A stretch of 64,000 nt of DNA from Paramagnetospirillum marisnigri (GTDB lineage Bacteria; Pseudomonadota; Alphaproteobacteria; Rhodospirillales; Magnetospirillaceae), in NCBI RefSeq assembly GCF_001650715.1, contig NZ_LWQT01000088.1, forward strand, positions 62,001 through 126,000. Reading direction: 5' to 3'. The first letter of the stretch is position 1; every line of letters starts with the position of its first letter. Shown here one piece after another: positions 28,637 through 42,440 of the stretch. The position numbers and the translations under genes are program-made. The notes beneath the pieces were generated by a model. That model ran no database searches. It had not been told where the DNA came from and worked only from the letters and a program-made list of their open reading frames with translations.

Positions 28637-28649
28637 TCAACCCGTCGTG

Positions 28650-30470
28650 ATGGAAGGACGCGCCTTGGCCGGTTCCCTTGACGCCGAGCGCACTCTTCAC
28701 GCCGCCGTGATCGCCGGTTGGATCGAGGACCAGGCCCCCGAACCCCTGCAAGCCGCCCTGTTCGACCTGCTGGACACCTGGCAGGCCGATGGCACGCGGC
28801 CCATTCCCGACCTGTGGAGCACCGTCGCCGCCCTGCTGCGGGAGCAAGGCTGCCGCGACGCCGAGTTGGCCTGTTGGCGTGCCCTGTCCGGGCTGCTTCC
28901 CTCCGAGCCGTCCATACGGGTGCGGCTGGCCGAAATCCATCAGTTGCGTGGCGAGGATGCCGAGGCCCGCGCTCTCCTGGCCGATATTCCCCCCGGCCAT
29001 CCCGCCCGGCCGTCGGCGCTGCTGCTGCGGCTGGACCTGGCCGCGACCCCGACCGACGAGGTGGAGGCCTGCATCGCCGAACTTCTTCCCATCCTGGCGG
29101 CAGCTCCGGCCTGGCAGGGTACCCATCACCGGCTGATCCGCGCCCTGGTGGCTCGGGGCCGGACTGACGCCGCCCGCGCCTTTCTGGCCGACTGGGTCAC
29201 AGCCCATCCCGCCGACCAGGGCGGCCTGCTGCTGGAATTGGGCTGGCTGGCCATGCATGCGGGTGACGCCGCCCTGGCGCGGTCCCAGTTCAAACGCCTG
29301 TGGGCCAAGGATGATCCCGACATCCGGGCGGTGGCCGGGCGCTTCGATGGCACGGTGCCGCCCTATACTCCCGAGATGGAGCAGGCCATCCGGGCACGCA
29401 TAGACGCCGCCTTCGCTTTGCCGGACGCCGATCTGGCCCGGCTCAACCTGCCCCAGGCGCCGCTGCCGAGCCAAAGGGTGCTGTTCGTCGGTTTCGACCG
29501 CCTGACCTTCCCCAATGATCTGGCGGAACATGTCCGCCGTTCGGCCGATGCGGCCGGAGTGGCCCTGGATCTCTATCTCGATTCCGCCATCGTCTATCCC
29601 GCCGAGACCCGCTGCGACGACGATACGGTGCGGCGACGGGTGGAGGCGTTCGAGGCCGAGGTGGAGCGGCGACGGCCCGAGGTGGTGGCGCTGGATTGCG
29701 CCTATATGCCGACCTTACGCGGCCTCGCCCCCGCCCGCATGCGGGACCTGGCCGACCGGCTGGGCTTCCGTCTGGTCTGCATGATGCGTGACGCCATGGA
29801 GCCGACCTTGGCCTTCCTGGAAGCCTGGGGCGCCGTGGCCGACACAATGGTGATCTTCGATCCCGGCTCGGCGGTGCTGCGGCCGGAACACTCCCATCTG
29901 CATGCCAGGATCGTGGTGGCGGTATTGCCAGCCCAGCATCTGGAAAGGGGGGAGGGCGAACGTGACCTGGGGCTGCTGTTCCTGGGCAGTAATACCTATG
30001 GCGTGCGCAACATGCTGCTGTCGGTGCTGCTGACCGAAGACATTCCCTTCACCGCCATTACCGGCGAGGTCCGCGCCGCCCAGGTGCCCGATCTGGACGC
30101 CTATGCCGGGCTGCTGCGCCGGGCCCGCGCCGTGCTCAATGTCGCCGCCCATTCCCGCACCGAATTCCTGATCACCGGCCGGGTGTTCGAGGCCATGGCC
30201 TGCGGCGCGGTGCTGATCGAGCAGGACAATGCGGCGACGGCGGCGCTGTTCACTCCCTGGCGGCATTACCTGCCCTGGACCAATGTGGACGACATCGTCC
30301 AGCTTTGCCGCTTCGTCGAACGCAATCCGGATGTGGCGCGGCGCATGGCCGCCGAGGCGCGGTCCTGGCTGGACCGGCACTATGATTGCCGTCGGTTCTG
30401 GTCGGCGGTGCTGAACCAAAGCCCCCTCCCCAACCCTCCCCCGGCAGAGCCGGGGGAGGGGGAAAGATAA
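28650..30470 (+). CDS. CgeB-like glycosyltransferase with helical N-terminal half (paralog A)
   Basis: About 606 aa. Residues 1-240 are helical repeat-like; from about 275 there is a GT-B type domain (VLFVGFDRLTFPNDLAEHVR, near 275-294) with the C-terminal glycosyltransferase signature of CgeB-like enzymes: RARAVLNVAAHSRTEF, then GRVFEAMACGAVLIEQDN near 510-527. It is a paralog of the gene at 33064, with the same HYLPW and DDIV motifs in the same order. The start is uncertain: ATG 28650 has no clear Shine-Dalgarno, while TTG 28665 follows GGAAGGA. The last 15 or so residues (Pro/Glu/Gly-rich) are encoded by a palindromic repeat. Position beside pse genes suggests transfer of a nonulosonate sugar, perhaps to flagellin (inference). 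Confidence 0.8.
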   Translation: MEGRALAGSLDAERTLHAAVIAGWIEDQAPEPLQAALFDLLDTWQADGTRPIPDLWSTVAALLREQGCRDAELACWRALSGLLPSEPSIRVRLAEIHQLRGEDAEARALLADIPPGHPARPSALLLRLDLAATPTDEVEACIAELLPILAAAPAWQGTHHRLIRALVARGRTDAARAFLADWVTAHPADQGGLLLELGWLAMHAGDAALARSQFKRLWAKDDPDIRAVAGRFDGTVPPYTPEMEQAIRARIDAAFALPDADLARLNLPQAPLPSQRVLFVGFDRLTFPNDLAEHVRRSADAAGVALDLYLDSAIVYPAETRCDDDTVRRRVEAFEAEVERRRPEVVALDCAYMPTLRGLAPARMRDLADRLGFRLVCMMRDAMEPTLAFLEAWGAVADTMVIFDPGSAVLRPEHSHLHARIVVAVLPAQHLERGEGERDLGLLFLGSNTYGVRNMLLSVLLTEDIPFTAITGEVRAAQVPDLDAYAGLLRRARAVLNVAAHSRTEFLITGRVFEAMACGAVLIEQDNAATAALFTPWRHYLPWTNVDDIVQLCRFVERNPDVARRMAAEARSWLDRHYDCRRFWSAVLNQSPLPNPPPAEPGEGER

Positions 30471-30514: not shown

Positions 30515-31564
30515 TCAGGACTCGATCATGTCCCAGCCTAGGGGCGTGCCGCGTCCCAGCGCCCGCGAGGCCCGCCGTCCGATGATCTCTGGCAGGTATT
30601 TGGGGGCCAGCCCGAAGCCGGGGCGGATTGAGCGGAGATTGGCGGCGGTGAACGCCTCGCCCGCCGCCATGTCGGCCACCACGTAGAGCGAGCGGCGGAA
30701 CTGGAGATTGCCGCTTTCCGATGGCTTCAGGTCGTAGGACACCCGGCCTAGGGCGGCCCAGGCGGTGCGGGCGCCGCTGACCAGTTCGGCCAGTTCGCTT
30801 GGTTCCAGCGAGAAGGCGGCATCGGGGCCGCCATCGGCGCGGGCCAGGGTGAAGTGCTTCTCGATGAAGGTGGCGCCCAGGGCCACGGCGGCCACCGAGA
30901 CGGCGGTGCCCATGGTGTGGTCCGACAGTCCCGCCTGTACCCCGAAGGCCTCGGCCAGATGGGGGATGGTGCGCAGATTGGCGTCCTCGGGGGCGGTGGG
31001 ATAGCCCGAGACGCAATGCAGCAGGATCATTTCCCGGCATCCGGCATCGCGGGCGCAGGCGACCGCGTCCTGGATCTCGCCCAGATGGGCCAGCCCGGTG
31101 GACATGATCATGGGCTTGCCGGTGGCGGCGATGCGGCGGATCAGCGGCAGGTCCACCAGTTCGAACGAGGCCACCTTGTAGGCGGGGGCGTCCAGGCTTT
31201 CCAGCAGATCCACCGCCGTCGCGTCGAAGGGCGACGAGAATACGCCGAGGCCGAGGGCGCGGGCACGCTCGAACAGCGGCTTGTGCCAGTCCCACGGGGT
31301 GTGGGCTTCGGCGTATAATTCGTGCAGCTTGCGCCCCGCCCACAATCCACCTTCGATGACGAAGCCCGGCCCGTCATGGTCGATAGTGATGGTGTCGGCG
31401 GTGTAGGTCTGCAGCTTGACCGCATCGGCCCCGGCGGCCTTGGCCGCTTCCAGCAGCGCGAAGGCGCGGGAAAGGTCGCCGTTGTGGTTGCCCGACATCT
31501 CGGCGACCACATAGGGGGGGTGGCCAGGTCCGATGGCGCGGCCGTCGATCATGATGCTGTCCAT
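30515..31564 (-). CDS. pseI: Pseudaminic acid synthase (NeuB family)
   Basis: 349-aa cytoplasmic synthase condensing 2,4-diacetamido-2,4,6-trideoxy-L-altrose with phosphoenolpyruvate. The TIM barrel starts YVVAEMSGNHNGDLSRA near 18-34, has DAVKLQTYTADTIT near 48-61, SSPFDATAVDLLE near 110-122, and GLSDHTMG near 219. The C-terminal antifreeze/SAF-like domain covers about 285-345 (SLYVVADMAAGEAFT). The segment EMSGNHNG is more like PseI than NeuB (which has EIGINHNG). It is divergent from the pseG fusion gene with 60 bases between starts. Confidence 0.9.
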   Translation of the reverse strand: MDSIMIDGRAIGPGHPPYVVAEMSGNHNGDLSRAFALLEAAKAAGADAVKLQTYTADTITIDHDGPGFVIEGGLWAGRKLHELYAEAHTPWDWHKPLFERARALGLGVFSSPFDATAVDLLESLDAPAYKVASFELVDLPLIRRIAATGKPMIMSTGLAHLGEIQDAVACARDAGCREMILLHCVSGYPTAPEDANLRTIPHLAEAFGVQAGLSDHTMGTAVSVAAVALGATFIEKHFTLARADGGPDAAFSLEPSELAELVSGARTAWAALGRVSYDLKPSESGNLQFRRSLYVVADMAAGEAFTAANLRSIRPGFGLAPKYLPEIIGRRASRALGRGTPLGWDMIES

Positions 31565-31624: not shown

Positions 31625-33067
31625 ATGCCGAGCGAGCCGAGAACCGTTCTTTTCCGCGCCGACGCTTCCCCTGCCCTGGGGATCGGCCATGCCATGCGTT
31701 GCCTGACCCTGGCCGGGGAACTGGCCGGGCGCGGCTGGTCGTGCCGCCTCGCCTGCGCCGCCGGGACCCGTGCCGCCGCCCGTGCCCTGGAGAACTGGCC
31801 GGGAGAGGTGATCGAGCTTCCCCCAGGCCGCGAGACCGACCCCGCCGCCCTGCTGGAGATGCCCGCGCCCCATTGGCTGGTGGTGGACCATTACGGACTC
31901 GACGCCGCCTATGAACGGGCGCTGGCCGCCTGGGCCGGGCGCATCCTGGTGATCGACGATCTCGCCGACCGCCCCCATGAATGCGACCTGCTGCTGGACC
32001 AAACGGTAGGGCGGCAGGCCTCCGACTATGACGGGCGGGTGGGCAGCGCCACCCTGGCGCTGGCCGGTCCGCGCTTCGCTTTGCTGCGGCCGGGCTTCAC
32101 CGGCGCTGATCCCGGCCGCGAGTTGGGGCGTATCCTGGTCTCCCTGGGCGGCACCGACCCCGCCGACGCCACCGGTCTGGCGCTGGACGCCTTGGCCAAG
32201 GCCGGGCTGGGCCTGCCGGTGGATGTGGTGCTGGGTGGGGCGGCGCCGCATCTCGACAGCGTCAAGGACCGCGCCGCCCGGCTTGTGCCCCCCGCCCGGG
32301 TGTTGACCGATGTGGCCGACATGGCCGGGGTGATGGCGGCTTGCGGTCTGGCGGTGGGAGCGGCGGGAACCTCGGCGCTGGAACGCGCCCGCATGGCCCT
32401 GCCCACCGTCACGGTGGTGATCGCCGATAATCAACGCCAGGTGGCGGCGGGGCTGGAGCGGGCGGGAGCGGCGCGGCTGGTGGCCCTGGACGCCGACGCC
32501 ATTGCCGAAGCCCTGGCCGATCTTGCCCGCGACGACGAGGCCCGGCGGCGGATGGCGCGCAAGGCCTGCGCCCTGTGCGATGGCAACGGCGCCGCCCGGC
32601 TGGCCGATCTGATGGCGGTGGAGCTGCGCCCCGCCACCCTGGCCGATGGCGAGGACCTGCTGGCCTGGCGCAACGATCCGCTGACCCGCGAGAATTCCCT
32701 GGAAACCGGGCAGGTGGCGCGCGATGGCCATTTCGCCTGGCTGGCCGGTGTCCTGGCCGATCCCCAGCGCCTGATCCTGGTGGGCGAGCGGGGCGAGGGC
32801 AAGGTGGGCATGGTCCGCTTCGACACCATGGGCGAACGGGAATGGCGGGTGTCCATCTCGGTGGCGCCGGAAGCGCGCGGTCGCGGCCTGGGCCGGGTTC
32901 TGCTGGCCTTCGCGGTGGGACGGATCGAACGGCTGCGGGGGCCGGGCGCCATGGTCGCCGAAATCCGCGAATCCAACGCCGCCAGCCAGTCCATCTTCAC
33001 CGCTTGCGGTTTCCGCCAGTCCGATGCCGCCGATGGCGTCCTCTATTTCCGCAGGCCGCCGCCATGA
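31625..33067 (+). CDS. pseG: Fusion of PseG-type UDP-sugar hydrolase and GNAT acetyltransferase (PseH-like)
   Basis: 480 aa. Residues about 5-335 match PseG, which removes UDP from UDP-2,4-diacetamido-2,4,6-trideoxy-altropyranose: DASPALGIGHAMRCLTLA near 11-28 holds the G-x-G-H-x-x-R-C motif, and GAAGTSALERARMALP near 240 is the donor-site loop. From about 340 (ELRPATLADGEDLLAWRND) a GNAT acetyltransferase follows, with the acetyl-CoA loop VAPEARGRGLGRVLL near 417-431. PseH N-acetylates the 4-amino sugar earlier in the pathway, so the fusion joins steps 3 and 4. The start ATG at 31625 lies in the 60-base pseI/pseG gap. The stop overlaps the next gene. Confidence 0.88.
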   Translation: MPSEPRTVLFRADASPALGIGHAMRCLTLAGELAGRGWSCRLACAAGTRAAARALENWPGEVIELPPGRETDPAALLEMPAPHWLVVDHYGLDAAYERALAAWAGRILVIDDLADRPHECDLLLDQTVGRQASDYDGRVGSATLALAGPRFALLRPGFTGADPGRELGRILVSLGGTDPADATGLALDALAKAGLGLPVDVVLGGAAPHLDSVKDRAARLVPPARVLTDVADMAGVMAACGLAVGAAGTSALERARMALPTVTVVIADNQRQVAAGLERAGAARLVALDADAIAEALADLARDDEARRRMARKACALCDGNGAARLADLMAVELRPATLADGEDLLAWRNDPLTRENSLETGQVARDGHFAWLAGVLADPQRLILVGERGEGKVGMVRFDTMGEREWRVSISVAPEARGRGLGRVLLAFAVGRIERLRGPGAMVAEIRESNAASQSIFTACGFRQSDAADGVLYFRRPPP

Positions 33068-34875
33068 CCCCGGCCGAGATGCAGACCATGGCGGCGGTGG
33101 CCACCGGCTGGATTCTGGACGAGGTGCCGGACCTGCTCCAGGACGGGCTGCTGCGCCGGGTGGGGCAGTGGCGCGATCACGGCCATCTGCCGCTGGGCGG
33201 GCTGTGGCATCCCATCGCCGAGACTCTGTCCAATTGCGGCTTCTATGATCTGGAACTGGCCGCCTGTGAGATGATGATCTCGCTGGAGCCGTTGCAGCCC
33301 AGCTTTCGCCTGCGGCTTGGCCGCTGCCTGATCCGGGTGCGGCGGCCGGACGAGGCCCGCCTCGCCCTGGACGGGCTGGTGGGCTTGGCCGCCATCCGCT
33401 CCGAGGCGCTGCTGTTGCTGCTGGCGGAGTTGGCCGATAGCCGTGCCGCTGTGATCGACGAATTGGAAGGCCTGCTGCTGGAGGATGGCGGCTGGGGTGG
33501 CCTTCACAAGGGCTTCGTCAAGGCCCTGCTCGCCCACGATATGACGGCGCGCGCCGAGGCCTTCCTGACCGCCTGGACCGGGCGCTGGTCCATCGGTGCC
33601 GCCCAGATCATGGATATGGGTGAAATGGCCATGCTGCTGGGGCGTCCGGCCCAGGCCTGCGCCCTGTTCGAGCCGCTGTGGCAAGCGGGCGGCGAGGACC
33701 AGGAACGCATGCTGGGCAAGTTTCACGGCGCCGTCGCCTCGTATGACGATGGGGCCGAGGCGCGACTGCTGGACCGGATCGACGCCGCCTTCCGCCTGCC
33801 GGAATCGGAGCTGCCCCGGGTGGCGCTGCCCGATTTCGGTCCGGATGCGCTGGGCAAGCGGGTGGTGTTCCTGACCTTCGGCGATCGCGCCCTGGTCAAC
33901 GACTTCGCCGTCCACTATGGCGAGACGGCCCGGCTGGCCGGGGTGGACATTCACCTTTATGCCGATTCCGCCCTGACCCTGCCGCGGGAGTTCCGGGGTT
34001 CCGATGCCGAGGTGGAACGGCGCATCCGGGCGTTCGAGGCCGAGATGGCGCGGCTTCGCCCCGACGTGCTGGTGGTGGACTGTGTTTCGCCCCTGATCAT
34101 GCGCGGCATCAATCCCGCCATGATCTTCGACCTGAAGCGGCGCCTGGGGTTCCGCGTCCTGTGCCTGATGCGCGATTCCCATCCCTATGCCATGCCGCTG
34201 GTGCGTGCCTGGCTGCCCGCCTGCGACACGCTGGTGGCCGACATCCTGTCGCCCATCCATGCCGAGGAGACGGGGGCCAAGACCCTGCCGCTGGTGGTGC
34301 CGGTGCAGCACGGCCCGTTCCTTCAGCCTTCGCCCCAAGGCGATGGGCTGGTGTTCATCGGCAGCGTCAATTTCCTCGCCCGCCATGCCCTGCTGTCGGT
34401 GCTGATGACCGAGGATATCCGCTTTCGCGCCATCTATGGCGAGGCCCGCCGCCATCTGGCGCCCGACATGGCATCCTATGCCCGGGTGCTGGGAGAGGCG
34501 CGCGGCGTGCTCAACATCTCGCTGCACACCCCCAAGGACCATCTGGTCACCGGCCGGGTGTGGGAGACCCTGGCGGTGGGCTCGGTGCTGGTGGAGCAGG
34601 ACAATCCCGGCACGGCGGCCTATCTCGCGCCCTGGCGCCATTACCTGCCCTGGGGCAGCCTCGACGACATCGTCCATCTGGCCAAGCTGATGGAACGCCA
34701 CCCCGATCTGGCGGCCCGCATCGCCGCCGAGGGCCATGCCTGGGCCTTGCGGCACTACCATCCCAGGGCGGTGTGGGGCGCCATGCTGGGCCATGCCGCC
34801 CGGCCAAGGCCCGAGGCCGATCTGGATGCCGAGGGCGCCGCCGCCCATGACTGGGCCCAGGTGACGTTTGGCTGA
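33064..34875 (+). CDS. CgeB-like glycosyltransferase with helical N-terminal half (paralog B)
   Basis: 603 aa. The layout is the same as the gene at 28650: helical repeat-like 1-240, then a GT domain from about 275 (RVVFLTFGDRALVNDFAVHY) and the CgeB-like end (EARGVLNISLHTPKDHLVTG, then GRVWETLAVGSVLVEQDN and HYLPWGSLDDIVHLAKL). Shared motifs in the same order (RIDAAFRLPESEL; RLGFRVLCLMRDS; LLSVLMTEDI) show it is a paralog. The ATG overlaps the pseG fusion stop by four bases, so it is translationally coupled to pseudaminic acid synthesis and is a good candidate for the transferase, possibly acting on flagellin in the cytoplasm. Confidence 0.82.
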   Translation: MTPAEMQTMAAVATGWILDEVPDLLQDGLLRRVGQWRDHGHLPLGGLWHPIAETLSNCGFYDLELAACEMMISLEPLQPSFRLRLGRCLIRVRRPDEARLALDGLVGLAAIRSEALLLLLAELADSRAAVIDELEGLLLEDGGWGGLHKGFVKALLAHDMTARAEAFLTAWTGRWSIGAAQIMDMGEMAMLLGRPAQACALFEPLWQAGGEDQERMLGKFHGAVASYDDGAEARLLDRIDAAFRLPESELPRVALPDFGPDALGKRVVFLTFGDRALVNDFAVHYGETARLAGVDIHLYADSALTLPREFRGSDAEVERRIRAFEAEMARLRPDVLVVDCVSPLIMRGINPAMIFDLKRRLGFRVLCLMRDSHPYAMPLVRAWLPACDTLVADILSPIHAEETGAKTLPLVVPVQHGPFLQPSPQGDGLVFIGSVNFLARHALLSVLMTEDIRFRAIYGEARRHLAPDMASYARVLGEARGVLNISLHTPKDHLVTGRVWETLAVGSVLVEQDNPGTAAYLAPWRHYLPWGSLDDIVHLAKLMERHPDLAARIAAEGHAWALRHYHPRAVWGAMLGHAARPRPEADLDAEGAAAHDWAQVTFG

Positions 34876-34959
34876 CCCGCAATGGGTCGCCGGAAGCATT
34901 ATCTTAACCATTTGACGCCACCCTGATGGGTGCGATTTCTTGCCAAGGAAGCCCTGATC

Positions 34960-35991
34960 GTGACCCTTCTCAATACCTTTCGGCGTGAAGACATCCGCGA
35001 CAAGCTGGCGGGCAAGTCCATCCTGGTGACCGGCGGCACCGGATCGTTCGGCAAGCAGTTCATCCGCACCGTGCTGGGGCTGGATTGCGTCAAGCGGCTC
35101 ATCGTGTTTTCCCGCGACGAGCAAAAGCATTTCGACATGCAGCACGAATTTAACGACACCCGCTACCCCGCCATCCGCTATTTCCTGGGCGATGTCCGCG
35201 ACCTGGAGCGGTTGCAGATGGCCTTCCGCGGCGTCGATATCGTCATCCACGCCGCCGCCCAGAAGCATGTGTCGCTGGCCGAGTACAACCCCACCGAATG
35301 CCTGCGCACCAATGTCTGGGGCGCCGAGAACGTGGTGCGCGCCGCCATCGACAATGGGGTGGGCACAGTGATGGCCTTGTCCACCGACAAGGCGGTCAGC
35401 CCGGTCAATCTCTACGGCGCCTCCAAGCTGGCGGCCGAGAAGGTGTTCATCGCCGCCAACAATCTGTCGGGCAAGTCCGCCACCCGCTTCGGCGCCGTGC
35501 GCTATGGCAATGTGGTGGGATCGCGCGGTTCGGTGGTGCCGTTCTTCCGCGACCTGATCCGCAAGAACGCCGAGTTCCTGCCCATCACCGACGAGCGCAT
35601 GACCCGGTTCTGGATCACGCTGCAGCAAGGCGTCGATTTCGTGCTGTCCTCCATGTGCATGATGCGGGGCGGCGAAATCTTCATCCCCAAGATTCCCAGC
35701 ATGAAGATGACCGATCTGGCCAAGACCATGGCGCCCGACATTCCCATCAAGGTGGTGGGTATCCGCCCCGGCGAGAAGCTGCACGAGGTCATGGTCAACG
35801 AGGAGGAGGCCCGCACCACCCGCGAACTGGCCGACCGCTACGTCATCCATCCCATGCTCTCCTTCTGGTCCAAGGACCAGGACAGCGAGGGTGAACCGGT
35901 GCCCGAGGAGTTCCGCTATGCCAGCAACACCAATACCTGGTGGCTGAGCGAGCACGAACTGCTGGGCATGATCTCTCGGCTGGAGCTATGA
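34960..35991 (+). CDS. pseB: UDP-GlcNAc 4,6-dehydratase (inverting) PseB
   Basis: First enzyme of pseudaminic acid synthesis: 4,6-dehydration and C5 epimerisation of UDP-GlcNAc with bound NADP. I chose GTG at 34960 (AAGGA at 34945-34949 upstream), giving 343 aa; a GTG at 34930 is in frame. The N-terminal Rossmann loop is GGTGSFG at 25-31, followed by GDVRDLERL near 76, AAAQKHVSLAEYNP near 97, and the active-site stretch STDKAVSPVNLYGASK near 136-151. The C-terminus holds IRPGEKLHE near 268, diagnostic of this SDR subgroup. Confidence 0.93.
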   Translation: MTLLNTFRREDIRDKLAGKSILVTGGTGSFGKQFIRTVLGLDCVKRLIVFSRDEQKHFDMQHEFNDTRYPAIRYFLGDVRDLERLQMAFRGVDIVIHAAAQKHVSLAEYNPTECLRTNVWGAENVVRAAIDNGVGTVMALSTDKAVSPVNLYGASKLAAEKVFIAANNLSGKSATRFGAVRYGNVVGSRGSVVPFFRDLIRKNAEFLPITDERMTRFWITLQQGVDFVLSSMCMMRGGEIFIPKIPSMKMTDLAKTMAPDIPIKVVGIRPGEKLHEVMVNEEEARTTRELADRYVIHPMLSFWSKDQDSEGEPVPEEFRYASNTNTWWLSEHELLGMISRLEL

Positions 35992-36100: not shown

Positions 36101-37288
36101 ATGACCCGCGCGCTGCCCTATGGACGCCAACTCATCGAGGACGACGACATCGCCGCCGTGGTGGCGGTGCTGCGCTCCGACGCCCTGACCGGCGGCCCCG
36201 CCGTCACCGGCTTCGAGACCGCGCTGCGCTCCGTCACCGGCGCGCGCCACGCGGTGGCCTGTTCCTCGGGTACCGCCGCCCTGCATCTGGCGGCCATGGC
36301 CCTGGAGTTGGGGCCGGGCGACGCGGTGATCGTGCCCTCGGTGACCTTCGTGGCCACCGCCAACGCGGCGCGCTATGTGGGGGCCGAGGTGGTGTTCGCC
36401 GATGTTGATCCCGCCACCGGCCTGATGGAGCCCCAGCATCTGGAGGCGGCGCTGAAGCGCTGCGGGACTGCCCGGCCACGGGCGGTGTTTCCCGTTCATC
36501 TCAATGGCCAATGCGTCGGCATGGCGGAACTGGGCGAACTGGCCCGCCGCCGCGGCCTGTTCGTGGTGGAGGATGCCTGTCACGCCCTGGGCAGCGTCCA
36601 GGGCGGACGGTTGACCGGGGCCTGTTCGTCCTCGGATATGGCGGTGTTCTCGTTCCACCCGGTCAAGACCGTGGCCATGGGCGAGGGCGGTGCCGTCACC
36701 ACCGCCGACGACCGGCTGGCGGAGCGGCTGCGGCTGTATCGCAGCCATGGCATCACCCGCGAGGCCGCCGATTTCTTGCAGCCCGCCGAGGCCTTCGATG
36801 CCGGCGGGCAGCCCAATCCCTGGTATTACGAGATGGCGCGGCCCGGCTTCAACTACCGCGCCTCCGACATCAATTGCGCCCTGGGGACCAGCCAACTGGC
36901 CAAGCTGGCCCGCTTCAAGACCCGGCGCACCGAGCTGGTCGAGGCCTACGGCGCCGCCCTGGCACCGCTGGCGCCGCTGGTCCAGCCGGTGGGGCGCCGT
37001 CCCGACTGCGTCCCCTCCTGGCATATCCAGGTGGTGCGCATCGACTTCGCCGCCGCCGGAACCAATCGGGCCAAGGTGATGCGCGCCCTGGCCGAGCGCG
37101 GCATTTCCACCCAGGTGCATTATCTGCCGGTGCATCGCCAGCCCTATTACCGCGCCCTTTATTCCGACACCGCCCTGCCCGGCGCCGATGCCTATTACGA
37201 CCGCTGCCTGACTCTGCCGCTGTTCGTGGGCATGGAAAATGCCGAGGTGGAACGGGTGGTCGCGGCGCTGAAGGCGGTGCTGTCATGA
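36101..37288 (+). CDS. pseC: UDP-4-amino-4,6-dideoxy-N-acetyl-altrosamine transaminase PseC
   Basis: 395-aa PLP-dependent sugar aminotransferase (DegT/DnrJ/EryC1/StrS family), second step of pseudaminic acid synthesis. Signatures: YGRQLIEDDDIAAV near 7-20, CSSGTAALHLAA near 54-65, VVEDACHALGS near 155-165 (Asp contacting PLP nitrogen) and the PLP lysine K189 in SFHPVKTVAMGEGG. The late segment QVHYLPVHRQPYY is typical for this branch. The stop overlaps the downstream oxidoreductase gene by four bases. Confidence 0.92.
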   Translation: MTRALPYGRQLIEDDDIAAVVAVLRSDALTGGPAVTGFETALRSVTGARHAVACSSGTAALHLAAMALELGPGDAVIVPSVTFVATANAARYVGAEVVFADVDPATGLMEPQHLEAALKRCGTARPRAVFPVHLNGQCVGMAELGELARRRGLFVVEDACHALGSVQGGRLTGACSSSDMAVFSFHPVKTVAMGEGGAVTTADDRLAERLRLYRSHGITREAADFLQPAEAFDAGGQPNPWYYEMARPGFNYRASDINCALGTSQLAKLARFKTRRTELVEAYGAALAPLAPLVQPVGRRPDCVPSWHIQVVRIDFAAAGTNRAKVMRALAERGISTQVHYLPVHRQPYYRALYSDTALPGADAYYDRCLTLPLFVGMENAEVERVVAALKAVLS

Positions 37289-38238
37289 TCGCCGTGCTCG
37301 GCCTGGGCAGCATCGGCCTGCGCCATGCCCGCAACGTCATGGATCTGGGCGAGACGGTGATAGGCTTCGACCCCTCGCCCCAGCGCCGTGCCCTGCTGGA
37401 GGCGGCGGGTGGCGCGGTCACCGACAACCGCGAGGAGGCCCTGGCCAAGTGCAAGGCGGTGGTCATCGCCAGCCCCTCGGATCGGCACGAGGACGATCTG
37501 GCCGCCGCCATCGAGGCCGGGCGCCATGCCTTGGTGGAAAAGCCGCTGGGCCATCGTCTCGGCCGCCTTCCCGAACTGCTGGACAAGGCCGAGTCCGCCG
37601 GGCTGGTGGTGGCCGCCGCCCTCAATCTGCGGGTCCATCCCTGCGTCCAGATGACCCGCATGGCCCTGGCCGAAGGCGTGATTGGCAAGGTGCTGTGGGG
37701 CCGCTTCCTCGCCGCCCTCTATCTGCCCGACTGGCGGCCCGGTCAGGACTGGCGCCAGGGCTATGCCAACGACCCCCGCACCGGCGGCGCCATTTTCGAC
37801 TATATCCACGAATTCGACCTGGCCGCCCATCTGCTGGGCCAGTTCCGGCCGCTGGCCTGCATCGCCGGGCAAAGCGGCAGTCTGGGCCTCGAGTCCGAGG
37901 ACATGGCCGACGCCTTCCTGCACCACGAGACCGGCGTGACCTCCACCGTGCATGTGGACTATGTCACCCGGCCGCGCCTGCGCGGCTTCCATCTGGTGGG
38001 GACGGGGGGACAGATCCATGTGGACCTGGACCGCCGCCAGTTCCGCCATGTGGATGCCTTGGGCGAGAACCGGGTGGACCGTACCCTGCTCGGCAGCTAT
38101 GCCGATGACTATGTCACCGAAATGTCCGCCTTCCTGGCCTCGGTCAAGGGCGCCCCGCCGGTCTGCTCCGGGCGCGAGGCCCTGGCCGTGCTGGACAGCG
38201 TCATCAAGGCCCGCACCCTAGCCGGATTACCGTCATGA
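37285..38238 (+). CDS. Gfo/Idh/MocA family oxidoreductase
   Basis: 317-aa NAD(P)-dependent sugar oxidoreductase. The N-terminal Rossmann fold shows VLGLGSIGLRHARN near 4-17, and the conserved EKPLG motif near 85-89 carries the active-site Lys. The C-terminal alpha/beta domain includes GGAIFDYIHEFDLAAHLLG near 171-189, with Asp and His in the position of the catalytic His of the family. It is coupled by ATGA overlaps to pseC upstream and the fusion gene downstream, so it probably modifies a sugar in the same pathway; it is not a standard pseudaminic acid enzyme. Confidence 0.85.
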   Translation: MIAVLGLGSIGLRHARNVMDLGETVIGFDPSPQRRALLEAAGGAVTDNREEALAKCKAVVIASPSDRHEDDLAAAIEAGRHALVEKPLGHRLGRLPELLDKAESAGLVVAAALNLRVHPCVQMTRMALAEGVIGKVLWGRFLAALYLPDWRPGQDWRQGYANDPRTGGAIFDYIHEFDLAAHLLGQFRPLACIAGQSGSLGLESEDMADAFLHHETGVTSTVHVDYVTRPRLRGFHLVGTGGQIHVDLDRRQFRHVDALGENRVDRTLLGSYADDYVTEMSAFLASVKGAPPVCSGREALAVLDSVIKARTLAGLPS

Positions 38239-40271
38239 AAGCCGTCGCCGTCATCCAGGCCCGCCTGTCTTCCACCCGTCTGCCCGGCAAGGTGCTGCTG
38301 CCGCTGCGGGGCCGCCCGGTGCTCGACTGGGTGGTCGATGCCGCCCGCGCCATTCCCGGCAGCGATTCGGTGGTGGTCGCCACTTCGGACCAGCCCGACG
38401 ACGATGCCGTCGAGGCCTGGGCCAAGGGCGCCGGGGTGGCCTGCCATCGTGGCGCGCTGGACGACGTGCTGGACCGCTTCGTCGGCGCGGCCCGCGCCCA
38501 GGACGCCGATCTGGTGATGCGGCTGACCGCCGATTGCCCGCTGCTGGACTCCCAGGTCTGCGGCGAGGTGCTGGCGCTGTTGAAGCGCTCCAAGCTGGCC
38601 TATGCCTCCAATGCCAGCCCCGCCAGTTGGCCCGACGGGCTGGACTGCGAGGCCTTCACCATGGACGCCCTGGAGGCCGCCGCGCGCGAGGCCACCCGCC
38701 CCGCCGACCGCGAGCATGTCACCGTCTTCATCCGCGACCGTCGCCACCGGTTCCCGCAGGCCTCGCTGGTCTGCCCGCTGCCCGGCCTGCATGCCGAGCG
38801 CTGGACCCTGGACGAGCCCGCCGACCTGGACTTCCTGGAGGCGGTCACCGCGAAACTGGGCCAGCGGCGCTCCTATCTCGACGTGCTGGCGGTGCTGGAC
38901 GCCGAGCCAGAACTGCGCCGGATCAACGCCCGCATCACCCGCAACGAGGGCTTCGCCAAGTCCCTGGCCAAGGAGGCGCTGCCCCCCTGGAACGGCGCAG
39001 CCACCAGCAAGGCCCTGCTGGAACGCGCCGAGGCGGTGATCCCGCTGGGCAGCCAGACCTTCTCGAAAAGCCGCATCCAGTATCCCGAGGACTCGCCCAT
39101 GTTCCTCACCCACGGCCTGGGCGGCCGGGTATGGGACGTGGACGGCAATTCCTATGTGGATATGGTCTGCGGCCTGCTGCCGGTGGTGCTGGGCTATCAG
39201 GACCCCGATGTGGATGCCGCCATTCGCGCCCAGTTGACCAACGGCATCTCCTTCAGCCTCGCCACCGAGTTGGAGACCCAACTGGCCGAGCGGCTGGTGG
39301 AGCTGATCCCCTGCGCCGAATCGGTGCGTTTCGGCAAGAACGGCACCGACGCCACCAGCGCCGCCATCCGCCTCGCCCGCGCCTTCACGGGACGCGATCG
39401 GGTGGCGGTGTGCGGCTATCATGGCTGGCAGGACTGGTATATCGGCTCGACCACCCGCAACAAGGGGGTGCCCAAGGCGGTGCAGGGCCTCACCCACACC
39501 TTCGCCTACAACAATCTCGATTCGGCGCGGCAGCTATTCATCGACCATCCCGGCGAGATGGCCGCCCTGATCCTGGAACCCATGAACGCCGTCGACCCGG
39601 CGCCCGGCTTCCTGGAGGGGCTGAAGGAACTGGCCCATGCCCATGGCGCCCTGTTGATCTTCGACGAGGTCATCACCGGCTTCCGCTACCATCTCGGCGG
39701 GGCGCAGACCCTGTTCGGGGTGACGCCCGACCTGGCCTCGTTCGGCAAGTCCATGGGCAACGGCATGCCCATCTCGGCGGTGATGGGCCGCGCCGACATC
39801 ATGCGCGAGATGGAGGAGGTGTTCATCTCCGGCACTTTCGGCGGCGAGGCGCTGTCGCTGGCCGCCTCCATCGCGGTGATCGACAAGATGAAGCGCGAGC
39901 CGGTGATCGAGGGCCTTTGGCGCACCGGCACCATCCTGGCCGACGAGGTGGGCAAGCTGACCGCCGCCCACGGCCTTTCCGATGTCTTTTCGCTGGTGGG
40001 TCGGGCGCCGTGGAAGATCCTGGCGGTGCAGGACCACGCCAAGGCCCGCAAGGAAGCCATCAAGACCCTGTTTGCCCGCGAGATGCTGCGGGCCGGGGTG
40101 CTGTTCCTGGCCAGCCATAACGTCTGCTACGCCCATGACGCCGCCGACATCAACCGGGTGCTGACCGCCTGGGACGTGGCCCTGGCCAAGGTAGAAGCGG
40201 AACTGGCGACGGGCAGGCTGGAGGAACGGCTGCCCTGCCCGGCGGTGATGCCGGTTTTCAAGGTGAGATAA
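38235..40271 (+). CDS. Fusion of SpsF-type cytidylyltransferase and class III aminotransferase
   Basis: 678 aa. Residues about 1-240 resemble SpsF/CMP-KDO synthetase nucleotidyltransferases: AVIQARLSSTRLPGKVLLPL near 5-24 holds the R-x-x-S/T-R-L-P-G-K motif and RLTADCPLLD near 96-105 the metal Asp. From about 255 to 670 the protein matches class III PLP aminotransferases of the glutamate-1-semialdehyde aminomutase type: LIFDEVITGFRYH near 476 and PLP lysine K505 in SFGKSMGNGMP. No separate PseF is visible, so the N-terminal half may activate the nonulosonate with CTP, while the aminotransferase may amino-modify the sugar. Both roles are inference. Confidence 0.82.
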   Translation: MKAVAVIQARLSSTRLPGKVLLPLRGRPVLDWVVDAARAIPGSDSVVVATSDQPDDDAVEAWAKGAGVACHRGALDDVLDRFVGAARAQDADLVMRLTADCPLLDSQVCGEVLALLKRSKLAYASNASPASWPDGLDCEAFTMDALEAAAREATRPADREHVTVFIRDRRHRFPQASLVCPLPGLHAERWTLDEPADLDFLEAVTAKLGQRRSYLDVLAVLDAEPELRRINARITRNEGFAKSLAKEALPPWNGAATSKALLERAEAVIPLGSQTFSKSRIQYPEDSPMFLTHGLGGRVWDVDGNSYVDMVCGLLPVVLGYQDPDVDAAIRAQLTNGISFSLATELETQLAERLVELIPCAESVRFGKNGTDATSAAIRLARAFTGRDRVAVCGYHGWQDWYIGSTTRNKGVPKAVQGLTHTFAYNNLDSARQLFIDHPGEMAALILEPMNAVDPAPGFLEGLKELAHAHGALLIFDEVITGFRYHLGGAQTLFGVTPDLASFGKSMGNGMPISAVMGRADIMREMEEVFISGTFGGEALSLAASIAVIDKMKREPVIEGLWRTGTILADEVGKLTAAHGLSDVFSLVGRAPWKILAVQDHAKARKEAIKTLFAREMLRAGVLFLASHNVCYAHDAADINRVLTAWDVALAKVEAELATGRLEERLPCPAVMPVFKVR

Positions 40272-40320: not shown

Positions 40321-41631
40321 TTATCCCTTCTTGATGCCCGAGCAGACCCGCGAGACGAAGGCGTCGATATCGTCGTTCATGGCAACGGTGCGGGCGGCCA
40401 GGTCGCCCGCCGCGATCAGCACCTGACCGGCGGCATCGGTGGCGGTTCCGGCGGTGGAGGCCACATCGCCGATAGTGTCGGCCACGGTCTGGACATCGGC
40501 GGCCACATTGCGGATGGAGCGGCTCATATCGGCCACGGCGGCGCTTTGCTGCTCGGTGGCCGCCGCGATGCCGGTGGCGTTGTCGTTGATGTCCCTGATC
40601 TTGCCCGCGATGTTGCGCACCGCGTCCACCGCGTGGTGGGTGGCGCTGCGCATGGATTCGATCTGGCTGGAAATCTCGTCGGTGGCGCGCGCCGTCTGGT
40701 TGGCCAGATGCTTGACCTCGTTGGCGACCACGGCGAAGCCCTTGCCCGCCTCGCCGGCGCGGGCCGCCTCGATGGTGGCGTTGAGCGCGAGAAGATTGGT
40801 CTGGCTGGCGATCTCGGTGATCAGGTTGACCACCTCGCCGATCTTCTGGGCAGCCTGATTGAGGCCGTTGATGGCCACGTCGGTCTCGGTGGCCACCCGC
40901 ACGGTTTCCTGGGCCATGGTGGCGGAATACTGGATGCGCTCGGCCACCTCGCGGATGCCCGCCGCCACCTGCTCGGCGGCGGCGGCCACGGTCTCCACAT
41001 GGGTGGAGGCGTCATTGGCGGCGTCGGCCACCCGGGTCGAGGTGTCGCTGGTCTGGTTGGCGATCTCCGACATTTGCCGCGCCGTGGCTTCCAGCTCGGT
41101 GGCGGTGGCGGCGACCACGCCGGTGACGTGCTTGATGGTCTCGCCGACGCCGGTGGCCTCGCTGGTGAAGGCCTTGGCGCGGTTTTCCATCTCGGTCAGG
41201 GCGCGGTTGATCAGGCGGGCATGGTCGGCGAACTCACCCACCAGGCCATCGGTCAGGATGTGACGGAAGTAGCGGCCCTCGGAGGTCAGGGCCATGGCGG
41301 CGTCGGCCTCCTTGGTGAAGACCTCGGTCAGGTCGAGCAGGCGGTTGATGGTGTGCTCCAACTGCCCCAGCACCCCGGCCTCGGTGATGCCGACGATGCG
41401 GGCGTCCAGCCGCCCCGAGGCGGCCTCGCCCAGCACGGTGCAGGCCCGGTGCACGGCGGTGCGGGCCTGATGGATGCAATAGAGCGCCACCAGGGCGCTG
41501 ACGGCGGCGGTGGCAATGGCGGCGGCGTCCAGGGCTGCGCCACGGGTCAGGGTGATCACCGCGCCGATCAGGCACAGACCGGCGGCGACCAGGCAGGCGA
41601 TCAGGGCCTTAGAGAGAGAAGACGAATTCAT
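40321..41631 (-). CDS. Methyl-accepting chemotaxis protein without a periplasmic sensor domain
   Basis: 436 aa. Two hydrophobic segments near 8-27 and 33-50 are separated by only a few residues, so there is no periplasmic domain. A HAMP-like linker follows, and the signalling hairpin tip sits at [20 protein letters not shown] near 284-303, followed by [16 protein letters not shown] chose the ATG at 41631; the longer open frame upstream is out of register with the PAS gene and is its shadow. The start overlaps the end of the PAS gene by 23 bases. The PAS protein probably supplies the sensory input, as in a split Aer-type receptor. Confidence 0.9.
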
Positions 41632-42133
41632 CGTAAGGCACTCCGGCGGTCTGCAATGTTGCGACAACGGCCTGGAAGGCCGCGTCCATCCCTGCCTTGC
41701 GGTCGGGGTTGCCCTGCTCGATGGCCAGCAGTTGCTTGTAAAGGCCCTCGGCCTTGGCGACGGCCTCGGGCCGGGGAGAGCGGCGGTTGGAGTGGTAGCT
41801 GACGATGGAGCCGTTCTTGTCGAAGGTGGGTGTGACGTGGGCCAGGACCCAGTAGTGGTCACCGTTCTTGGATCGGTTCTTCACATAGGCGAAGATTTCC
41901 TTGCCCGCCGAGATGGTGTCCCACAGCAGCTTGAAGACGCAACGCGGCATGTCGGGGTGGCGGATGATGCTGTGCGGCTGGTTCAGGATTTCCGCTTCGG
42001 AATACCCGGCCAAACGCAGAAACACCTCATTGGCATAGATGATCCGGCCCTTGGTGTCGGTCTTGCTGACAATGATTTCGTCGGAACCGAATGTCCGCTC
42101 CACGCCGCTAAGGTATATGCCCGATGTCTTCAT
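41609..42133 (-). CDS. Aer-like PAS domain sensor protein
   Basis: 174-aa soluble protein with one PAS domain at about 15-120: [20 protein letters not shown], then [22 protein letters not shown] and the [16 protein letters not shown] strand. This is the Aer PAS type, which in E. coli binds FAD and senses redox state. The ATG at 42133 has GGGGAGAG just upstream; a GTG at 42145 is a weaker choice. It ends inside the start of the chemoreceptor gene, so the two are translationally coupled. Whether it binds FAD or heme cannot be told from sequence. Confidence 0.88.
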
Positions 42134-42440
42134 GTCTCTCCCCACAGAGAGGATAGCAAATGGGTGGCTACCCGAAAGGATAGTGCTAATACAAATTCGA
42201 TGGTACGCGAAAACATATTAATGAGCGATGAAAATTGCCAAGGTCAAAAAATGTCAACCTTTGACGGAAATACAAAGAATTTCGTCTTAATGTGTCCGCT
42301 GGGATGTCACGCAAATTAGACTTCTTAAAAAATCATCCAGATAGAATGTCTATACATGGAGGGCAACCCTGGGGAAAACTGGTGGCGTTGCCATCCCGCC
42401 GCCTACTCACTAAGGTGCGGGCAGCCACGGACGAGGACGC
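42134..42440. other. AT-rich gap between divergent PAS and rlmJ genes
   Basis: About 307 bases, clearly more AT-rich than the flanks at 42170-42360, as expected for divergent promoters. A 32-codon open frame at 42221-42319 (three Cys, no clear Shine-Dalgarno) is present but not convincing. I cannot assign -10/-35 boxes with confidence. Confidence 0.5.

Follow-up and report, generated by a model that had tools for sequence, protein, structure and literature searches.

The 64,000-nucleotide stretch of the Paramagnetospirillum marisnigri genome that was analysed (the window) contains a gene set for the biosynthesis of pseudaminic acid (Pse), and within this set a single open reading frame (ORF) that joins an SpsF-type cytidylyltransferase to a class III aminotransferase dependent on pyridoxal phosphate (PLP). 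An earlier, sequence-only reading of the stretch had described one 678-residue frame holding a nucleotidyltransferase and a PLP aminotransferase with K505, and this description was borne out by the ORF, the Pfam matches and the motif residues (Table 1). The domains CTP_transf_3 (PF02348; residues 4-174) and Aminotran_3 (PF00202; residues 288-633) are both matched far above cut-off. The nucleotide motif QARLSSTRLPGK begins at residue 8, whereas residue 505 is the lysine of an ASFGKSMGNG motif and pairs, in one alignment, with the lysine of the LGK motif in 2cfb, a solved glutamate-1-semialdehyde aminomutase. The start of the frame overlaps the stop of the preceding Gfo/Idh oxidoreductase gene (ATGA), and the latter in turn shares its first 4 bases with the end of pseC. 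Within positions 38901-39060 translation could start only at an in-frame GTG (39036), with a GAGG two bases 5' of it, a spacing closer than usual. The possibility of a chance frame or a sequencing artefact could be rejected, since in all 14 orthologous loci from other genomes of the host's family the two halves form a single ORF.

Table 1. Genes and protein halves of the Pse locus; positions are those of the window.
Feature	Position	Strand	Details
SpsF-type cytidylyltransferase-class III aminotransferase fusion	38235..40271	+	678 aa, single open frame, no stop
Cytidylyltransferase half	38235..38939	+	motif QARLSSTRLPGK, Asp100, Asp193/Asp197; PF02348
Class III PLP aminotransferase half	38985..40268	+	Lys505, Asp477, conserved C-terminal F-x-V-R; PF00202
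Gfo/Idh/MocA oxidoreductase, proposed dehydrogenase partner	37285..38238	+	317 aa; PF01408 and PF22725
pseC	36101..37288	+	TIGR03588, 483 bits (cut-off 423.5)
pseB	34930..35991	+	TIGR03589, 490 bits (cut-off 407.75)
pseG fused to a GNAT acetyltransferase (pseH-like)	31625..33067	+	TIGR03590, 236 bits (cut-off 153.55)
pseI	30515..31564	-	TIGR03586, 511 bits (cut-off 340.25)
Tetratricopeptide repeat and glycosyltransferase-type (TPR-GT) protein	33064..34875	+	603 aa; PF13524 above cut-off, PF14559 below
Second TPR-GT protein	28647..30470	+	607 aa; PF13524 and PF14559 above cut-off

The assignment of the N-terminal half to the SpsF type, which we take to be the family of B. subtilis SpsF, follows from PF02348, a motif of the QAR...TRLPGK kind and the conserved Asp residues, all of which are present. 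Standalone SpsF-type genes match this half over the full length with 46-48% identity (160-167 bits), the LegF and KdsB of the same genome only weakly (46 and 36 bits), and the closest solved chain by sequence is 6oew, titled 'Cytidylyltransferase'. The class III assignment of the C-terminal half is backed by PF00202, the lysine and the fold match. In an AlphaFold2 model of the fusion (mean pLDDT 88.3, pTM 0.84) both halves are good except for residues 397-407, and among the 50 fold matches listed the highest target-normalised TM-score (0.90) belongs to the aminopentol aminotransferase FumI. The sequence relatives of this half within class III include C-6' aminotransferases, and its scores stay below the cut-offs for HemL (TIGR00713; 257.4 vs 527.3 bits) and PRK06209 (415.7 vs 486 bits). 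The residues Q8, A9, R10, R15, K19, D100, D193 and D197, as well as D477 and K505, are invariant in 18 of 18 aligned fused proteins, comprising that of the window and 17 from the broad scan described below, in which 19 loci are fused (L189 and L190 were left out). Likewise, the catalytic Lys and the last Phe and Arg of the aminotransferase are invariant in all 22 aligned rows.

The pse set named in the sequence-only reading held for pseB, pseC, pseG and pseI, which exceed the curated cut-offs, and did not hold for PseH: the corresponding model (TIGR03585) gives 27 bits on the GNAT part of the PseG fusion, below its cut-off of 93.1, and what is present is a GNAT domain. The Gfo/Idh protein resembles the NCBIfam UDP-GlcNAc 3-dehydrogenase weakly (54.6 bits, cut-off 450). 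The genes pseI and pseG-GNAT are flanked on either side by the two TPR-GT proteins. Compared by architecture alone, both are candidate counterparts of FlmG, the Caulobacter flagellin glycosyltransferase of ~596 aa with N-terminal TPR and C-terminal GT-B domains (PMC7591256; this and the other papers cited are represented by the available parts of their text). Immediately downstream and on the other strand, a methyl-accepting-chemotaxis-like gene (40321-41862) and a short sensor-like gene (41609-42145), both named by eye, lie outside the sugar locus.

SpsF-type enzymes and the missing PseF

The sequence-only reading had also pointed out that the locus has no separate pseF. A genome-wide profile search of the host (131 contigs, 99.99% complete) gave no protein over the cut-off of the PseF model (TIGR03584, 205.7 bits); the best match reached 152 bits, and the N-terminal half of the fusion itself 25.9 bits. 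The gene for the 152-bit protein, on contig C66, comes immediately after NeuC-like and NeuB genes and is followed by a PtmE-like gene (names by eye). The corresponding locus (L009, G000 C66:228000-247999) is of the legionaminic type, with NeuB, NeuC-like, NeuA and PtmE-like genes (by eye) and, towards its end, a KdsB-like gene. Another nonulosonate-type locus of the host genome (L011, G000 C43:45000-64999) holds a standalone SpsF-type gene together with NeuB-type, DegT and asparagine-synthase-like genes (partly by eye).

A comparison of 55 genomes of the host's family, host included, showed PseF over its cut-off in one genome, and in none of the 26 that have PseI over cut-off. An SpsF-type match (E <= 1e-20), on the other hand, was found in 25 of these 26, versus 8 of the 29 genomes without PseI (Fisher P = 1.6e-7, kinship ignored). 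The sole PseI genome without such a match (G006) carries a PseF-like gene below cut-off (191 bits) beside PseI. Moreover, in two loci of the same genus that have no Gfo or aminotransferase (L068 and L069) a standalone SpsF gene follows directly after pseC, and two genomes with PseI and the fusion (G024, 99% complete, and G028, 94%) gave no PseF-like match at 1e-20. Thus, because SpsF-type genes track PseI across the family, no PseF over cut-off accompanies PseI and SpsF follows pseC in L068 and L069, a role of the N-terminal half as stand-in for PseF seems well supported. The earlier suggestion that this half could supply CMP activation is strengthened by the same co-occurrence and by the conserved motif residues. 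In Caulobacter, the cytidylyltransferase FlmC has been reported to lack homology to PseF, and a six-enzyme set that includes FlmC supports, together with FlmG, flagellin modification in E. coli (PMC7591256).

The gene set within and beyond the host's family

The fused frame is present in 15 of the 55 family genomes, that is in 14 of the 54 others besides the host, and a Gfo/Idh relative adjoins it in all 15 loci (contexts taken from tblastn). The layout PseB-PseC-Gfo-fusion occurs in eight of them (the window, G022, G027, G037, G038, G045, G047 and G048) and the layout PseB-Gfo-fusion, without PseC, in seven (G021, G023, G024, G025, G028, G031 and G032). On account of these seven, the idea that the fusion needs an adjoining PseC was rejected; in six of them PseC lies elsewhere in the genome, adjoining a PseG-like gene. 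A gene of 346-348 aa beside five of the PseC-free loci was considered as possible synthase and also rejected, as it gives no PseI match and is flagellar-like by eye. Three genomes without PseI over cut-off (G021, G025 and G032) share a different NeuB-type gene, 86-92% identical among themselves. These genomes weaken the notion that the fusion needs PseI, though they do carry the other NeuB-type gene. In L072 this synthase gene (L072:10485-11555, with relatives in L073 and L074) lies beside histidine-operon-like genes (by eye). Since Gfo adjoins all 15 fusions while PseI over cut-off is present in 11 of the 15 genomes, the stable core of the arrangement is the Gfo-fusion unit, with room for variation in the synthase.

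Among 385 sampled alphaproteobacterial genomes, 28 (host included) encode a relative of the aminotransferase half (E <= 1e-80). In the surroundings of 28 alphaproteobacterial aminotransferase matches outside the window, a PseI/NeuB-type gene was found nearby in 23 and an SpsF/NeuA-type gene in 25. In addition, a broad scan was made in which named genomes were searched with the aminotransferase alignment alone, yielding at least 80 loci; the neighbours were counted with hidden Markov models (HMMs) built from alphaproteobacterial loci, at matches over 60 bits and with weaker ones dropped. At least two of the seed loci, L141 and L058, recur in the broad scan as L194 and L159. The counts that follow refer to the 80 loci among the matches listed.

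According to the record titles, 42 of the 80 loci are from Pseudomonadota other than 'Deltaproteobacteria'. The remaining ones include Bacillota, Actinomycetota, Bacteroidota, Cyanobium and Acidobacteriota, and further Chloroflexota, Planctomycetota and metagenome-assembled genomes (MAGs) of Leptospirales and Aenigmatarchaeota. A MAG titled Flavobacteriales (L183) carries the gene set as well, and on a haloarchaeal plasmid the Gfo/Idh, SpsF-type and aminotransferase genes adjoin, with NeuB, DegT and short-chain dehydrogenase/reductase (SDR) genes close by. One record, L209 (CP051228.1, titled Mesoflavibacter sp.), seems misnamed: its GTDB family includes two genomes whose aminotransferase matches agree with two from the alphaproteobacterial sample in contig number, near-identical coordinates and frame length.

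A CMP-transferase is matched in 70 of the 80 loci, a NeuB-type synthase in 62 and an oxidoreductase in 60. When only loci of 15 kb or more are considered (58), these numbers are 55 for SpsF or NeuA, 53 for the NeuB/PseI type and 47 for the oxidoreductase, which is an aldo-keto reductase (AKR) in 33 and of the Gfo/Idh type in 14. The two types were not observed together in any long locus, versus 8 loci expected (P 4e-7, kinship ignored). For comparison, five 20-kb control stretches of the host genome were searched and yielded no such gene set: four gave no match over 60 bits and one gave PseB and a weak Gfo. Genes for a PIG-L deacetylase and a formyltransferase-like protein (L137:12630-13304 and L137:11959-12633) recur near the module in 15 and 10 of the 80 loci, which suggests N-acyl group swaps on the sugar. 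On a plasmid of Methylomagnum ishizawai (L244), the aminotransferase has as neighbours a split transketolase, an SDR, a member of the N-acetylneuraminate synthase family, a HAD hydrolase and a 'glycosyltransferase family protein', and no gene annotated pseB or pseC was present in the 21 kb covered; this cluster perhaps serves a different sugar acid pathway.

Fusion of SpsF to the aminotransferase occurs in 19 of the 80 loci. One of the 19, from an Acidobacteriaceae MAG, is a triple fusion of Gfo/Idh, SpsF and class III aminotransferase (L190:8183-11269, 1028 aa), and a single contig (L141/L194) carries a Gfo-aminotransferase fusion (both by Pfam). On the aminotransferase tree, which holds 111 of 113 rows, near-copies among them (L143 and L144 (wrong frame) were left out), the fused state requires at least 10 changes, five of which are forced by well-supported branches. 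The type of oxidoreductase requires 13 changes, seven of them forced by such branches. Repeated pairwise fusion and the exchange of non-homologous oxidoreductases are as expected of the consecutive steps oxidise, aminate and activate. The earlier proposal that the aminotransferase and Gfo/Idh act as a pair in the modification of a nonulosonate is supported by the neighbourhoods and the fusions.

A proposed route and its rivals

We propose, with a probability of roughly one half, that the fusion performs the last two steps of a variant Pse pathway with CMP-8-amino-8-deoxy-Pse as product. In this pathway, PseB, PseC, the PseH-like GNAT, PseG and PseI would make Pse from UDP-GlcNAc, after which Gfo/Idh would oxidise a single hydroxyl of Pse, with the exocyclic C8-OH as the likeliest site. 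The resulting ketone would be turned into an amine by the aminotransferase half, and the SpsF half would load the aminated product onto CMP, yielding CMP-8-amino-8-deoxy-Pse, from which the neighbouring TPR-GT proteins would transfer the amino-Pse to flagellin. We infer every reaction, the order of the steps, the position C8 and the acceptor.

To our knowledge, the C4-OH and C8-OH are the only free secondary hydroxyls of Pse outside ring closure, and neither can be modified before PseI acts. Gfo/Idh and the aminotransferase should therefore act on Pse or CMP-Pse, and this suits the fusion to an activating enzyme. The targets of C-6' aminotransferases are exocyclic carbons in antibiotic sugars, and the substrate end used by FumI, CH3-CH(NH2)-, is like C8-C9. 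The position C8 is favoured because such C-6' enzymes are among the relatives, because FumI ranks first by target-normalised TM-score among the fold matches listed, and because an 8-amino nonulosonate has been reported: 8-amino-3,5,7,8,9-pentadeoxy-manno-nonulosonic acid from the O-antigen of Flexibacter (now Tenacibaculum) maritimus (PMC3210612). These three grounds may serve as hints, not as proof. A tentative generalization, for which we would claim somewhat less than even odds, is that an oxidoreductase (Gfo/Idh or AKR), a class III aminotransferase and SpsF/NeuA form an exchangeable and repeatedly fused module across many phyla and some archaea. This module would make CMP-8-amino-8-deoxy-pseudaminic acid and related compounds, and these would constitute a class of triamino sialic-acid-like sugars, largely unrecognised so far, on flagella and surface polysaccharides.

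Several observations weigh against this proposal. By E-value, the solved chains closest to the aminotransferase half are glutamate-1-semialdehyde aminomutases, not sugar enzymes. Four of the 15 fused family genomes are without PseI over cut-off (G021, G025, G032 and G031), and G031 (95% complete) gave no match to the PseI model at E <= 1e-60. Among the matches listed, neither Gfo nor AKR scores over 60 bits in 11 of the 58 long loci, and one of the 80 loci (L163) carries both. In view of these 11 loci and of the Methylomagnum plasmid, with its transketolase pair, SDR and NeuB, the aminotransferase family is not uniform. The genes behind the T. maritimum 8-amino sugar were not found in the available parts of the literature. 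Furthermore, a gene cluster of Legionella pneumophila serogroups 6 and 12 (sg6/sg12) lists genes named PseG, glutamate-1-semialdehyde aminomutase, cytidylyltransferase, aldo/keto reductase, DegT, CapD and NeuB (PMC3694923; the likeness is one of gene names), and a homopolymer of 4-epi-legionaminic acid, without 8-amino group, is reported for non-1 serogroups of this species (PMC3210612). Should the Legionella genes be true relatives and 4-epi-legionaminic acid be the correct sugar of sg6/sg12, the pair may have another function.

The flagellin sugar of Aeromonas hydrophila AH-1 can be read in more than one way. Its mass is 403 Da and the authors' top formula, C19H32O9, is nitrogen-free (PMC4691044). 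The mass is odd, as three nitrogens would give, and 8-amino-Pse with two acetyls and a glyceroyl is computed at 403.159; acetamidino-Pse with a glyceroyl and an O-acetyl is isomeric with that form. AH-1 has a single sugar, a feature tied to Groups I and III of the Aeromonas glycosylation islands, and the subgroup of AH-1, which would tell if it carries the aminotransferase, is not given in the available text (PMC7874193).

The SpsF half could be the cytidylyltransferase for Pse and yet Gfo/Idh and the aminotransferase could act at C4, or as a deaminase and a reductase that swap an amine for a hydroxyl. We regard this as unlikely. It accounts for the same conserved linkage of oxidoreductase, aminotransferase and CMP-transferase, the replacement of Gfo/Idh by AKR in the same slot fits reduction as well as oxidation, and the Legionella sg6/sg12 gene list (PMC3694923) set beside the reported 4-epi-legionaminic acid (PMC3210612) points in this direction. 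However, an 8-amino nonulosonate is reported from nature (PMC3210612), with no search made for 4-amino forms, and since the product of the PseB-PseI route already carries its two amines, taking one away would be less economical.

It is improbable that Gfo/Idh and the aminotransferase produce an acyl group with an amine, or an aminated UDP-sugar, for use elsewhere in the glycan, and that the fusion to SpsF just matches expression. The mostly amino-acid-type names of the solved class III relatives and the weak similarity of Gfo/Idh to UDP-GlcNAc 3-dehydrogenase would agree with such a role, but the SpsF-aminotransferase fusions in several lineages and the triple fusion argue for successive steps on one molecule, and the module accompanies NeuB-type synthases of PseI as well as non-PseI types. 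Finally, it is very improbable that the SpsF half has no activating role, being inactive or a glycosyltransferase, and that PseI relies on the NeuA-like protein encoded in the C66 locus: this protein does score 152 bits to the PseF model and a plasmid record does name an SpsF-type protein 'glycosyltransferase family protein', but that NeuA lies directly behind its own NeuC-like and NeuB genes, G024 and G028 manage with PseI and the fusion without any PseF-like match at 1e-20, the motif residues of the fusion are invariant, and B. subtilis without spsF accumulates legionaminic acid of which none reaches the spore surface, in a mutant that was not complementable (PMC7439481).

If amination at C8 followed by activation by the SpsF half is indeed what the fusion does, an orphan amino-nonulosonic acid would acquire a biosynthetic route, and SpsF-type enzymes doing the job of PseF would explain the Pse loci that are free of PseF. 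Many carriers of the module (Aeromonas, Bacillus-type and alphaproteobacterial) would then have triamino sugars, maybe filed as 'pseudaminic acid derivatives'. In the literature covered, 8-amino nonulosonates have so far been reported only in the O-antigen of one fish pathogen; the same gene set in many unrelated bacteria may make this rare amino sugar. The residue masses are directly predicted, 315.14 Da for the amine or 357.15 Da for the N-acetylated form versus 316.13 for plain Pse5Ac7Ac, and the idea is therefore checkable in existing spectra.

Comparison with known systems

The sequence oxidise, aminate and CMP-activate is known from the Kdo8N pathway of Shewanella (KdnA/KdnB), where it acts at C8 of a 2-keto-3-deoxy sugar acid. 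That pathway differs from the proposed route in that it concerns an eight-carbon sugar and employs other enzyme families. The structure of 8-amino-8-deoxy-Kdo is named in a reference title of PMC9912281. In the sps system of B. subtilis, SpsF closes a UDP-based pathway to legionaminic acid with the activating step, in line with the role proposed here, whereas the set SpsM, C, D, G, E and F contains, in the available text, neither a class III aminotransferase nor Gfo/Idh, and SpsF is a separate gene (PMC7439481). The sugar of Flexibacter (Tenacibaculum) maritimus is of the type expected from the proposed reactions on a Pse-type acid (manno configuration), although it is part of an O-antigen and not of flagellin, and its C8 configuration is not settled in that source (PMC3210612).

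In the nab cluster of Vibrio B9-25K2, a bifunctional SpsF protein follows PseC and was proposed to replace the absent NeuA. In that protein, however, SpsF is joined to an aldo-keto reductase and not to an aminotransferase (PMC7371886). The locus also resembles the polar flagella glycosylation islands of Aeromonas, in which subgroups IA-IE have, in the order given, pseB, pseC, a reductase, 'pseF', a class III aminotransferase, (pseG) and pseI in a flagellin locus; the available text assigns no role to the reductase and the aminotransferase (PMC7874193). These islands differ from the locus of the window in that the genes are unfused and an aldo-keto reductase (PF00248 in L199) takes the place of Gfo/Idh. 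In our scan, the Aeromonas loci L188, L191, L193 and L199 have the order AKR-SpsF-aminotransferase after pseC (by HMMs), no PseF over cut-off was found in the genomes of L188 and L199, and the SpsF-type gene of L199 gives 33.7 bits to the PseF model.

The statement in the sequence-only reading that the modified nonulosonate had not been described needs qualification, as both an 8-amino nonulosonate (PMC3210612) and the unfused Aeromonas islands (PMC7874193) were already reported. We found no open-licence paper that describes an SpsF-aminotransferase fusion or links the module to an 8-amino nonulosonate. Thus, the unfused cluster and the idea that SpsF can stand in for NeuA are known, whereas the SpsF-aminotransferase fusion and its putative link to the orphan sugar appear to be new.

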